Below, piece after piece: positions 18,145 to 28,288 of a stretch of DNA of 64,000 nucleotides. The position numbers and the translations under genes are program-made. Source of the stretch: Burkholderia metallica. Its GTDB lineage: Bacteria; Pseudomonadota; Gammaproteobacteria; Burkholderiales; Burkholderiaceae. A model generated the notes under the pieces. The model did no database searches, was not told the DNA's origin, and saw only the letters and a list, made by a program, of their open reading frames with translations. Position 1 is the stretch's first letter; every line of letters starts with the position of its first letter. The stretch lies in contig NZ_CADFDB010000002.1 in NCBI RefSeq assembly GCF_902832845.1, positions 248,001 to 312,000 on the forward strand, given 5' to 3'.

Positions 18145-19968
18145 ATGCCTGCCTACACCAAGCCAAGATGGTTACGGGATCTGCTGCGCTTCCTCCCGTT
18201 GAAAAGCCAATTCGTGCTCTCGGGAAACGTACGCGATTTGCAGGCATGTGAAGTTGCTCCCGAAGTGGTGACGGCACAGTCGCTGGTGAGTACGCTCGGC
18301 GACAATCTGCGGGAGTCAGGCTATGCGCAGTGGGTCGCCTGGAGCCCGATTTCAGGCTTCACGGTACCCGACAGCCGGGTGCCGCCAACGGAGCCTGCCG
18401 ATGCAACCCTGCGACGTCTTGGCTTGACACCGGTCGATGGCGTGGCGCCGGGCGGCATTGACGCGCTCACCGCATGCCTTGAACGCCTGGCCACGCTGCC
18501 CGGGCCGCCGATTGCCCTCGTCGTCGATTTTGCTTCTCGACTGGCGATTCGCGCCGAAACCCTGAACCCGACGGAACACACCCTGTTCACGCGCGCACTG
18601 GTGCTGGCGCATATGGCCGCACCCCGCCCCTGGGGAGAACTGCGCCGTCCGTATTTCAATACCGTGATCTGGATCGTCGACAAGGAAGGCGATCTGCCAG
18701 ACTGGTTGCTGATCGACAACCCTCGGATACGGCATATTCCCGTGTCGAAACCCGACAGTGCCGCGCGTCGGGCGTTGGCCGGCGCATTGCTGCGTGGCGT
18801 ACCGGGCGCCCAGGCCACTACACCGGACAGTCTTTCCGACGCAGAATCCGCATTCGTTGACGGTTGCGACGGATTGCTGCTGGCCGACATGAATGCGATC
18901 GCCACGCTCGCCCGCGTCGAACAGGTTCCCCTCGATAAAATTGCCGACGCCGTGCGACGTTATAAAGTGGGCGTCACCGAGGATCCGTGGCAGCAAATCG
19001 ATCGAGACAAGATCCGTCACGCCGACGCCTTCATTCGCCGGCGAGTCAAAGGCCAAGCGCATGCAGTCACGCACATGCTCGACCTCGTCAAACGAGCGAT
19101 GACGGGCGTCGGTTCTCAGCGGAAAGGAAACCGGCCCCGCGGTGTCGCGTTCCTCGCCGGCCCGACCGGCGTCGGGAAAACCGAACTCGCCAAGACGATC
19201 ACGAGCCTGCTGTTCGGCGACGAAAGTGCCTACATCCGCTTCGACATGTCCGAGTTCAGTGCGGAGCATGCCGATCAGCGGCTCATCGGCGCTCCACCCG
19301 GCTACGTCGGCTACGACGTCGGCGGAGAATTGACGAATGCGATTCGCGAACGCCCGTTCAGCGTGGTGCTCTTCGACGAAATCGAAAAGGCGCATCCACG
19401 CATTCTCGACAAGTTTCTACAAATTCTCGATGACGGCGTGCTGACGTCGGGACGCGGTGATCGCGTGTACTTTTCCGAAGCGTTGATCGTTTTTACGTCG
19501 AACCTCGGCATTTACCGCCAGGACGAATCGGGTCAGCGCGTGGCCAATATCCACCCAGGAAACGACTTTGCGGAAATCCAGAAGAAAGTCCTCGGGGAAA
19601 TCCATCGGCATTTCAAGCTGGTCCTGAACCGGCCAGAAATCCTCAACCGCATCGGCGAGAACATCATCGTCTTCGACTTCATCCGCGAGGATGTCGCGAC
19701 GGACATTTTCGAGCAGATGGTCCATGCCGTCCTCGACGACGTCGCCTCCCAAGGCATCGTCGTTGACCTCGACTCCAGTTCCAAGATAGCGCTCCAGGCG
19801 AAATGCCTCGGCGATCTGTCAAACGGCGGCCGCGGCATCCGAAACCAGATCGAAGCGCACCTGCTTAATCCGCTGGCACGCGGCCTGTTCGATCAGGATG
19901 CGAACGCCGGTGATCGGTTTGTCATTTCGGGCATCGACTGCGGCTCGTTCGAGTTGCAAAAGCGCTAG
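18145..19968 (+). CDS. ClpB/Hsp104-like AAA+ ATPase, first gene of the candidate defence operon
   Basis: A 607-residue AAA+ protein. The C-terminal half is a complete ClpB D2-like module: Walker A GPTGVGKT (339-346), pore loop GYVGYD (386-391), Walker B VVLFDEIEKAH (407-417), sensor 1 FTSN (450-453) and a C-terminal small domain. The N-terminal half (about 1-270) has VLSGNVRDLQ, IALVVDFAS and NTVIWIVDKEGDLP, which resemble strands of a second P-loop domain lacking a Walker A motif; I infer a degenerate first ATPase domain. There is no Clp N-domain and no M-domain coiled coil, so it is not a housekeeping ClpB. The next gene starts 3 bases after its stop. It may remodel or load the partner proteins. 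Confidence 0.88.
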   Translation: MPAYTKPRWLRDLLRFLPLKSQFVLSGNVRDLQACEVAPEVVTAQSLVSTLGDNLRESGYAQWVAWSPISGFTVPDSRVPPTEPADATLRRLGLTPVDGVAPGGIDALTACLERLATLPGPPIALVVDFASRLAIRAETLNPTEHTLFTRALVLAHMAAPRPWGELRRPYFNTVIWIVDKEGDLPDWLLIDNPRIRHIPVSKPDSAARRALAGALLRGVPGAQATTPDSLSDAESAFVDGCDGLLLADMNAIATLARVEQVPLDKIADAVRRYKVGVTEDPWQQIDRDKIRHADAFIRRRVKGQAHAVTHMLDLVKRAMTGVGSQRKGNRPRGVAFLAGPTGVGKTELAKTITSLLFGDESAYIRFDMSEFSAEHADQRLIGAPPGYVGYDVGGELTNAIRERPFSVVLFDEIEKAHPRILDKFLQILDDGVLTSGRGDRVYFSEALIVFTSNLGIYRQDESGQRVANIHPGNDFAEIQKKVLGEIHRHFKLVLNRPEILNRIGENIIVFDFIREDVATDIFEQMVHAVLDDVASQGIVVDLDSSSKIALQAKCLGDLSNGGRGIRNQIEAHLLNPLARGLFDQDANAGDRFVISGIDCGSFELQKR

Positions 19969-19971
19969 GCC

Positions 19972-26945: not shown

Positions 26946-28288
26946 GTGGCCCGAAAGTTGTTCGGATCGTGACGCGCGAGGAAATCGTCGCCATCTGCGA
27001 GGGACATCTGCAACGTCTTGACCAGGCCATCGCCACGTGGATTGCCGAAGGCACACATATCGGCAAGCTGCTTGATGAGGAGATCGCCGCGACCCGGGCT
27101 CGCCGTGACGCGCTGGGAGCATTGATCGCAGCCGACGCGTTTATGGACTTGCAAAAGAAAGTGCCTGACGAGATCGCTTTCCTGAAGTCGGATCTCGCCC
27201 GGCGTCAACAGGCGGCAATCGAGCAGGCCGAGCAGGCAGCGAAGCGCCGGCGGCAAGGACGGCACAGCGCGGTGACATTGCTCGACGCACTCGAAGCGAA
27301 AGGCGTCGAGATTCCGGCTGAACTCCATAAGCAGCTCGATCACTTGCGCTCGGGAAACATGCTCAAGAACGCCGATGCCCTGCTCGCGCAAGGGTTCGCT
27401 CTTCTGACGCCTGCGGTAGAACGAACGCTCAACGATGCGCAACGGGCTCTAGCGAATCGCCTCATGCCGACGGAAACGACGGCAACCTTCCAAACGTGGA
27501 CGGCGACGCAAATGGCTGCGTCTCGTGATCCGTCGATCGACCGTCTCGATCGACAGATCGGCGAAGCACGGGTATTCCTGGAACCACAAGCGGTCGCCGG
27601 ATTCTCGTCGCGCCTGGATGCCCTCGAAGACGAACCGAGCGACGCGCGACGAAGCCTGTTGCTCGACAGCCTGATCCTCGACCTGTCGAGCGCCATCGAC
27701 GCGGCTCGCGCACGTCGCACGGCTATCTCGGCACTGGAAGAATTAACGGCGGAGATTCGGGCTTACGACACGGCAGACACTGCAATGTTTGTCGAACGTG
27801 CCCGACAATGCGATATCACCACGTCGCCTGACTTCGTGGCCGAGCTGACCCGATCCGGGCAGGAACTAATAGCTCGAGTGCGACAGCAACAAGCGGCGGA
27901 GGCTCGGCGCAACGCCATCCTGAGCGGCTTGGCGCGACTCGGCTATGAAGTACATGAGGGTATGACGACGGCATGGGCGAAGGACGGCCGGGTCGTCGTC
28001 AAGAAACCCTCCCTGCCGGACTATGGTGTGGAAATCGGTGGTCAGGCTCAAGCGGGTCGCCTGCAGGTTCGGGCCGTATCTCTCGCCGCGAATCGCGACG
28101 TTGCCCGCGATAAAGATGTCGAAACGCTCTGGTGTGGCGAGTTTGGCCGGTTGCAGGCGTTGCTGGCACAACATGGTGATGACTTGCTGATCGAACGTGC
28201 AATGGGTGTTGGCGAGGTACCGCTCAAGGTTGTTTCCGAGATGGACCATGCGTCCAGCCCCGCAGCAGCCATGCGCACGCTGAGGTAA
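26942..28288 (+). CDS. Coiled-coil protein of unknown function, last gene of the candidate defence operon
   Basis: A 448-residue protein that I cannot assign to a named family. It starts MSGPKVVRIVTREEI, then a helical domain (20-60). Long helices rich in Ala, Arg, Glu and Gln (about 75-140 and 235-350) predict coiled coil, for example in the segment IEQAEQAAKRRRQG. A more mixed C-terminal domain (370-448, with LPDYGVEIGGQAQ) looks like beta structure. No signal peptide and no catalytic motif is visible. Its ATG overlaps the stop of the helicase gene (ATGA), so the two are translationally coupled and the products probably form a complex. A structural or sensor subunit is a reasonable inference, not a demonstrated role. 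Confidence 0.82.
   Translation: MSGPKVVRIVTREEIVAICEGHLQRLDQAIATWIAEGTHIGKLLDEEIAATRARRDALGALIAADAFMDLQKKVPDEIAFLKSDLARRQQAAIEQAEQAAKRRRQGRHSAVTLLDALEAKGVEIPAELHKQLDHLRSGNMLKNADALLAQGFALLTPAVERTLNDAQRALANRLMPTETTATFQTWTATQMAASRDPSIDRLDRQIGEARVFLEPQAVAGFSSRLDALEDEPSDARRSLLLDSLILDLSSAIDAARARRTAISALEELTAEIRAYDTADTAMFVERARQCDITTSPDFVAELTRSGQELIARVRQQQAAEARRNAILSGLARLGYEVHEGMTTAWAKDGRVVVKKPSLPDYGVEIGGQAQAGRLQVRAVSLAANRDVARDKDVETLWCGEFGRLQALLAQHGDDLLIERAMGVGEVPLKVVSEMDHASSPAAAMRTLR

Follow-up and report, generated by a model that had tools for sequence, protein, structure and literature searches.

The DNA analyzed here is a 64,000-nucleotide stretch of Burkholderia metallica (positions 248,001 to 312,000 of contig NZ_CADFDB010000002.1; hereafter the window), in which four genes on the plus strand form a single operon encoding a ClpB-like ATPase, an NrdG-like radical S-adenosylmethionine (radical-SAM) enzyme, a giant pseudokinase-helicase-nuclease and a coiled-coil protein. 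We found that the operon is accessory and mobile, and that it represents a branch of a larger ClpB-like/radical-SAM family in which other effectors occur; an original prediction, made from the DNA letters alone, had not included this family. In our judgment there is about an even chance that the four genes constitute a horizontally moving conflict system, most likely one of anti-phage or anti-mobile-element immunity. The genes and their principal features are the following.

18145..19968, plus strand: gene 1, a two-tier, ClpB-like AAA+ ATPase of 607 residues (predicted)
19972..20613, plus strand: gene 2, a minimal NrdG/PFL-activase-like radical-SAM enzyme of 213 residues
20053..20076, plus strand: CX3CX2C cluster motif of gene 2 (C28, C32, C35), found in 62 of 62 aligned sequences
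20622..26945, plus strand: gene 3, 2107 residues with zinc ribbons, a pseudokinase and post-kinase region, DUF4011, a superfamily 1 (SF1) helicase and an MTES_1575 nuclease
20994..21746 (approximate ends), plus strand: pseudokinase domain of gene 3, with the VAIK Lys replaced by Thr162 and the DFG Asp by Gly267
26622..26912, plus strand: MTES_1575 nuclease domain of gene 3 (D2028, E2044, D2046, H2050)
26942..28288, plus strand: gene 4, a helical coiled-coil protein with a conserved N-terminal strand and a C-terminal beta-beta-beta-alpha-beta domain
28133..28135, plus strand: codon of Cys398 in gene 4, a candidate radical or modification site

The genes are tightly packed. Gene 1 and gene 2 are separated by 3 bases, and gene 2 and gene 3 by 8 bases when counted from the first ATG of gene 3 (20622) or by 17 bases from the ATG at 20631, which is the start that fits the gap originally given. 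Gene 3 and gene 4 overlap in an ATGA with the gene 4 start at 26942; given the conservation of the start MSGPKVVRIVT, a longer open reading frame (ORF) from 26753 was not adopted. A scan for sigma-70 promoters found 0 against 2.2 expected.

When residues 1-330 of gene 1 alone were used to scan the genome collection, 62 loci were recovered. All four genes stand in the same order in 56 of them, across Alpha-, Beta- and Gammaproteobacteria, with named carriers that span Rhizobium, Burkholderia, Pseudomonas, Serratia, Proteus and Gilliamella. The tight same-strand unit described in the original prediction, which had pointed to recurrence in unrelated genomes as a check, is therefore confirmed in both its layout and its recurrence. 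Among the six incomplete loci, three are cut by contig ends (L043, L065, L067), one is a short fragment (L075) and one is a match of 27-29% (L077), while L064 has a truncated gene 1 and, within the 9 kb available downstream, none of its partners. Conservation was counted after dropping copies under 580, 195, 2000 and 380 residues (genes 1 to 4, respectively), the loci of other branches (L005-L011) and the repeat loci L087 and L088, which were judged to duplicate L021 and L048. The length thresholds were passed for every gene by 51 of the 56 complete loci, in which the successive intergenic gaps range from -4 to 8, -19 to 30 and -14 to 62 bases. Pairwise distances correlate closely from one gene to another (r of 0.885-0.962, 55 sequences); the genes are thus inherited together.

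The operon is rare among relatives. A family-wide profile of the gene 1 N-terminus matched 7 of 398 genomes of the phylum, that of the window included (E <= 1e-10); at least two of those seven (G102 and G275), and also G110, represent other branches. Gene 4 was detected in 9 of 101 relatives, again with the window genome counted: eight belong to the same genus, and one is a weak match outside it. One further member of the genus (G492) has the operon. In E. coli, blastn with two family members gave no match in 5,426 genomes. Phage carriage is limited to one virus-labelled contig end, and among 148 matched phage records none covers 80% of gene 1, the 12 listed matching the D2 part only. A fixed core gene set, which would have spoken against the original prediction, is not what we see: the operon occurs in a minority of the genus, and empty sites exist.

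The third gene encodes the likely effector. Pfam assigns to it Pkinase (1.4e-17), DUF4011 (1.9e-11), AAA_11 (1.4e-12), AAA_12 (1.6e-20) and the MTES_1575 nuclease (7.2e-17). In an alignment of 57 sequences, six of the seven zinc-ribbon cysteines are invariant and the seventh, C31, is kept in 56. The helicase residues K998, D1655 and E1656 are invariant in all 57, as are D2028 and E2044 of the nuclease, with D2046 conserved in 55 and H2050 in 56. The kinase domain shows the opposite pattern. Position 162, the site of the VAIK Lys, is T in 55 copies, S in one and W in one, and never K; position 267, the site of the DFG Asp, is G in 43, E in 12 and S in 2, and never D. The kinase domain is thus dead in all 57 aligned copies, as the term pseudokinase had already implied. 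In the bacterium Aristaeella, two separate proteins correspond to parts of gene 3: profile positions 99-464 match a separate kinase and positions 750-2087 match a separate DUF4011 protein. From these two matches, the simplest reading is that gene 3 arose by fusion of a kinase gene with a DUF4011 helicase gene and that kinase catalysis was lost afterwards.

Gene 1 matches AAA_2 (8.5e-45) and ClpB_D2-small (1.2e-4) in Pfam, which assigns residues 331-592 to a ClpB-type D2. This tier carries a Walker A motif (GPTGVGKT), a Walker B motif (LFDE), the pore-loop Tyr387 and the sensor-2 Arg563, and the residues K345, D411/E412, Y387 and R563 are invariant in 62 of 62 sequences. The first 270 residues gave no Pfam match, and no Walker A was seen in them by eye. 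In a family profile of the N-terminus, positions 266-331 match the starts of Clp D2 domains (E 5.8e-7), and positions 204-267 separately match a VCP-like ATPase (E 2.2e-4). The AlphaFold model has a mean predicted local distance difference test score (pLDDT) of 76.1, with the N-terminal tier mostly at about 85-94 and D2 partly low. Its Foldseek alignments to ClpC, ClpA and ClpB each span more than 600 columns, with TM-scores of about 0.3-0.5; that to ClpC extends over 701 columns at E 1.6e-22. On this basis, we interpret the N-terminal half as a degenerate D1. Judged from the model, gene 1 is a two-tier AAA+ ATPase of the Clp/Hsp100 type with a D1-D2 fold, an intact D2 and an aromatic pore loop.

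Gene 2 matches Fer4_12 (9.4e-21) and has no added domains in its 213 residues. In addition to the three cluster cysteines, the GGE motif, S139, N141 and Q142 are invariant in 62 of 62 sequences, and by its CX3CX2C and GGE motifs the protein can be assigned to the radical-SAM superfamily.

At the limits used, searches of Pfam, PADLOC, NCBIfam and PHROGs gave no match for gene 4. Its structure model (mean pLDDT 85.5) consists of an N-terminal strand, long helices and the C-terminal beta-beta-beta-alpha-beta domain, and a fold search with it gave no hit in the PDB or among viral structures at E <= 0.001; a KA1-like resemblance was weak (TMt 0.53, prob 0.33) and was not used. Five residues are invariant in 61 of 61 sequences, namely G334, Y335, E364, D390 and C398, the last being the only such cysteine. 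Several positional counterparts of gene 4 in other branches begin with MSGPK or MSG.PK. Homology between gene 4 and these counterparts was not significant by profile or hidden Markov model, and we treat the shared start as a lead only. The counterparts of two other sets share their C-terminal domain with each other (87%, E 3.9e-6).

Relatives of the gene 1/gene 2 pair occur with other partners. In Moellerella, Photobacterium, Polaromonas, Leisingera and Acinetobacter plasmids, the pair is preceded by genes for a helicase-like AAA protein, a PIN-domain protein and a further protein of some 370 residues. In Aristaeella (Bacillota, L009), its neighbours encode a DUF4011 protein, kinases as separate genes, an FHA protein and a PP2C phosphatase. 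A row in a further member of the Pseudomonadota (L091) encodes a coiled-coil protein, a ClpB-like protein, a radical-SAM enzyme, a zinc-ribbon FHA protein, a PP2C phosphatase and an active-looking kinase. In Geminocystis (Cyanobacteriota), the relatives of gene 1 and gene 2 lie about 9 kb apart; three small-GTPase-like proteins, with a P-loop recognized by eye, are encoded between the radical-SAM and ClpB-like genes (L011:2037-10568) and are perhaps part of another effector type. Two further arrangements were observed: a second trio of AAA ATPase, radical-SAM and hypothetical genes adjoins a PIN-type ClpB/radical-SAM system (L010:14709-16691), and in Photobacterium two additional radical-SAM genes stand beside its system (L006:1428-3496).

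The mobility of the operon is evident at its site in the window. Of 65 genomes of the genus, 31 have the left neighbour, a gene for a DUF4132 protein, and 55 have the recombinase gene on the right, and where the two are close on one contig their spacing varies from about 1.2 to 19 kb. Two near-clean empty sites were found: the match to the window stops at 17998 and restarts at 29494 with 13 bases between in L096, and it stops at 17989 and restarts at 29503 with 28 bases between in L105. In the window, the stretch missing from the empty sites thus extends to about 29493. In B. aenigmatica (L016), window-like sequence continues to 28330 and picks up again at 29497; the insert there is thus essentially the four genes. 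The features of the site are the following.

17999..28330 (approximate), strand not assigned: inserted unit by comparison with L016
28361..29092, minus strand: small gene of low third-position guanine-cytosine (GC) content, alongside the operon in two of three Burkholderia loci compared (L018 and L059, not L016), and probably outside the four-gene system
31204..33009: phage-integrase-family recombinase with a DUF3701 domain, located at the edge of the variable site and a possible driver of its turnover

Base composition is in line with foreign origin. In 2-kb windows, GC content is 0.59-0.63 in the operon and 0.70-0.72 immediately to its left, and the third-position GC of the four ORFs (0.64-0.72) compares with 0.86, 0.87 and 0.89 in the neighbouring ORFs at 15711-17993, 13824-15428 and 31204-33009, respectively. 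To the right, GC content stays at 0.58-0.63 until about 30 kb and reaches 0.69-0.73 after that. The low-GC block is therefore somewhat longer than the operon, and of the two host-like flanks originally described, the left one stands whereas the right one begins only 1-2 kb further on. A second lower-GC stretch (0.58-0.61) at 6001-12000 of the window is unrelated to the operon.

Copies of the operon are carried on plasmids and megaplasmids in Caballeronia and Rhizobium, and Microvirga and Roseomonas retain only a shortened helicase gene and gene 4, beside insertion sequences. In the gene 1 tree, the copies of Achromobacter and of an Azoarcus metagenome-assembled genome (MAG) are placed beside Burkholderia (0.99), and two Cupriavidus species have distantly related versions; these placements likely reflect transfers between families. 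Other observations concern the site itself. In L059 (3033-20962) and L099, judged to be the same strain, the final ~118 bases of the gene for the DUF4132 protein (window 17880-17998) are duplicated, and the two copies bracket an insert of about 4.2 kb between the DUF4132 gene and the operon, which suggests integration at the 3' end of the DUF4132 gene. At the same site, L104 (4142-9143) carries a trio of HlyD, peptidase-C39 ABC exporter and outer-membrane-efflux genes of the bacteriocin-export kind, and L103 (4286-6343) a protein with MoeA_N and SMI1/KNR4 (SUKH) domains that matches the PADLOC candidate PDC-M40A (3.4e-53).

A mechanism can be proposed from these architectures. Gene 3 would be the effector, its SF1 helicase and nuclease acting on foreign nucleic acid, and its zinc ribbons, dead kinase and post-kinase region may serve as a sensing or docking arm. 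Genes 1, 2 and 4 would form a control module, in which the Clp-type ring of gene 1 threads or remodels gene 4 (or gene 3) through its D2 tier. The NrdG-like enzyme would alter a protein of the system in a radical-dependent manner, the best candidate being the C-terminal domain of gene 4. This change might license or release the gene 3 effector.

The substrate of gene 2 is central to this proposal. Its best NCBIfam match is NrdG (74.2 bits) and its sole sequence relatives in the PDB are PFL-activating enzymes, both of which would fit an ordinary activase of anaerobic ribonucleotide reductase or of another glycyl-radical enzyme that came to lie in the operon by chance. We regard such an origin as extremely unlikely. 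The NrdG score is under the cut-off of 126.1 bits, gene 2 adjoins gene 1 in 57 of 62 loci, and in 20 of the 33 carrier genomes searched, that of the window among them, two Pfam models (E <= 1e-10) detected no NrdD and no Gly_radical protein, which refutes the activase as a general explanation and rules out a known glycyl-radical enzyme as the general partner of gene 2. NrdD was present in the other 13 and the Gly_radical domain in 8, all inside those 13; E. coli, the control, was positive for both models. The search covered 33 of 39 carriers, leaving out four MAGs, Dechloromonas and one Rhizobiales isolate. Given the 20 carriers without a glycyl-radical enzyme, the substrate of gene 2 is most likely a component of the system. 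We favour gene 4, around C398 in its C-terminal domain: 56 of the 62 loci have the gene, that domain holds a single invariant cysteine, and the protein would be a natural client for the neighbouring unfoldase. The N-terminal Gly3 of gene 4 was also considered as a radical target and was discarded as not universal. Since many radical-SAM enzymes modify peptides, gene 2 might instead mature a small peptide or metabolite within a biosynthetic cluster. This is very unlikely in our view: the gaps in the 51 loci (-19 to +62) leave no room for an extra gene inside the operon, the stretches outside it not having been searched, and a helicase-nuclease giant would be unusual as a biosynthetic enzyme.

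Two further readings concern the operon as a whole. It could serve stress response or protein quality control, with the unfoldase rescuing or removing damaged protein and the helicase-nuclease working in RNA or DNA repair, which would agree with the Clp/Hsp100-type two-tier fold that the structure search gave for gene 1 and with neighbourhoods that are not clearly enriched for known defence genes. The rare accessory presence (7 of 398 genomes by profile, empty sites) argues against a stress operon, as does the observation that nucleic-acid effectors vary by branch while the ClpB-like and radical-SAM proteins remain constant, as in conflict systems, and we consider this reading unlikely. A self-killing, toxin-like or anti-plasmid system, in which a triggered gene 3 would attack host nucleic acid or incoming plasmids and gene 4 together with the Clp ring would otherwise hold it inactive, shares the same anatomy, and several copies are indeed located on plasmids. 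It appears improbable to us, since no separable antidote pair is apparent, the four genes stay together in 56 of 62 loci, and the gene 3-gene 4 remnants without gene 1 that were examined (L003 and L013) lie beside insertion sequences; partial gene 4 matches in H11, H12 and G065 stand outside that examination.

Several observations weigh against an immune role or against the details proposed for it. Among 114 upstream ORFs of 38 loci, few PADLOC matches were obtained at 1e-15 (Kiwa A and B, PD-Lambda-4 B, TnsB twice, RtcR twice, and single others), and a similar handful, including type I restriction, came from the controls, 105 ORFs in 27 stretches picked arbitrarily from these genomes. This comparison is one of counts only, on the upstream side, with 3 ORFs per locus against up to 4 per control stretch, and the 38 of 62 loci sampled omit near-duplicates and short ones. 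Kiwa is present in 3 of these 38 genomes and adjoins the operon by coordinates in one (L066), and Pfam found a few transposase and integrase genes among the same 114 ORFs. Upstream flanks therefore show no clear enrichment over controls that would indicate a defence island. At the window's own site, the sampled occupants are mostly metabolic, regulatory or export genes (Pfam, 10 ORFs, five occupants); in PADLOC, run on 7 ORFs, an ABC exporter matched mad3 and the SUKH-domain protein matched PDC-M40A, so that with one candidate-defence match a defence hotspot is not supported. The gene 1 tree mostly tracks taxonomy, which indicates that transfer is occasional. In gene 4, Gly3 is replaced by Ser in 11, by Ala in 1 and by a gap in 1 of 61 sequences. 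In the wider family, the short contigs L090 and L092 have a gene 1 relative with a coiled-coil neighbour and no radical-SAM gene among the listed ORFs, and in Mesomycoplasma (L012) gene 1 was matched but gene 2 was not; carriage of the pair is thus not universal there. Taken together, the original prediction of a defence system finds backing in an effector related to anti-phage helicase-nucleases, in a distribution that is patchy and mobile and, as to its check on recurrence near defence genes, in the recurrence itself, but not in the flanks, which resemble the controls; defence is plausible rather than established.

An immune role as set out above would have wider consequences. Tentatively, and with the odds against it, the family may represent a new class of immune machine in at least three phyla, in which an NrdG-like and Clp-type core post-translationally activates or releases interchangeable nucleic-acid-cutting effectors (a DUF4011 helicase-nuclease, or a helicase with a PIN nuclease) and in which the branch of the window has fused the kinase trigger and lost its catalysis. 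We know of no earlier case of radical protein modification gating immunity, and this would be the first. If the module controls effectors, oxygen-sensitive radical chemistry would be tied to immunity, the substrate of the radical enzyme would be a clear question to pursue, and the core would provide a search handle for more systems.

The gene set was not found in PADLOC, in NCBIfam or in the literature searched, whose coverage did not extend to bioRxiv and most subscription papers, and it is not described in the accessible parts of PMC10250203, PMC7159879, PMC6589727, PMC12629846 and PMC13356809. This agrees with the original view that no described system has this set, and no characterised non-defence pathway was matched either. 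The pairing of a Clp-type unfoldase with an NrdG-like radical-SAM enzyme likewise corresponds to no described defence or stress system in the literature and profile libraries searched. The precedents originally named (Dodola, Mokosh, and helicase-nuclease fusions) hold as partial homologies, but none matches as a whole, and the operon in its entirety fails a defining test of each known system tested, that is, Hhe/ProA, Mokosh, Dodola, NrdG and ClpB.

The closest relations are those of gene 3. Among the best 25 of 31 PADLOC matches, PDC-S37 reaches 3.1e-143 in three stretches (best residues 1415-2103); ProA in NCBIfam reaches 2.8e-150 over residues 958-2104, and Hhe 6.8e-91. These three, listed by PADLOC or NCBIfam as anti-phage proteins or candidates, have the DUF4011-type helicase and nuclease core in common with gene 3. 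The scores are nevertheless far under the cut-offs, with 502.5 against 1500 bits for ProA (NF058533, 'anti-phage protein ProA') and 305.5 against 2000 bits for Hhe, and gene 3 differs from all three in its extra zinc ribbons and pseudokinase and in being tied to three further genes. Mokosh (MkoA/MkoB, MkoC) resembles it partially, by a broadly similar helicase (MkoA, 159.3 bits) and a kinase domain. Mokosh needs an active Ser/Thr kinase, whereas that of gene 3 is fused and, from the loss of the VAIK Lys and DFG Asp in 57 of 57 copies, dead; to our knowledge, Mokosh has no Clp ATPase or radical-SAM enzyme.

For the control module the likenesses are looser. DolB of Dodola (DolA/DolB) is ClpB-like and matches gene 1 with 64.9 bits at residues 269-454 (profile 109-278 of 375); this is the D2 module common to Clp ATPases and not a match over the whole length of DolB, and PADLOC found no DolA match in genes 1, 2 and 4. 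Against the ClpB disaggregase, gene 1 scores 259.4 bits, below the equivalog cut-off of 1232.1. Viperin-type proteins are radical-SAM defence proteins and share with gene 2 a radical-SAM enzyme in a presumed defence setting, but gene 2 matches no PADLOC model and is NrdG/PFL-activase-like. Threonine-phosphorylation modules of the type VI secretion system (T6SS) or Ter type offer a further comparison, as genes for a kinase, PP2C and FHA adjoin that of a Clp-like ATPase in L009 and L091; unlike in those modules, the annotation of L009 includes no secretion, TerD or vWA gene, and the branch of the window keeps a dead kinase only. Overall, the gene 3 effector is of a known kind, whereas the ClpB-like/NrdG-like control core, gene 4 and the gene set are new within the sources searched.

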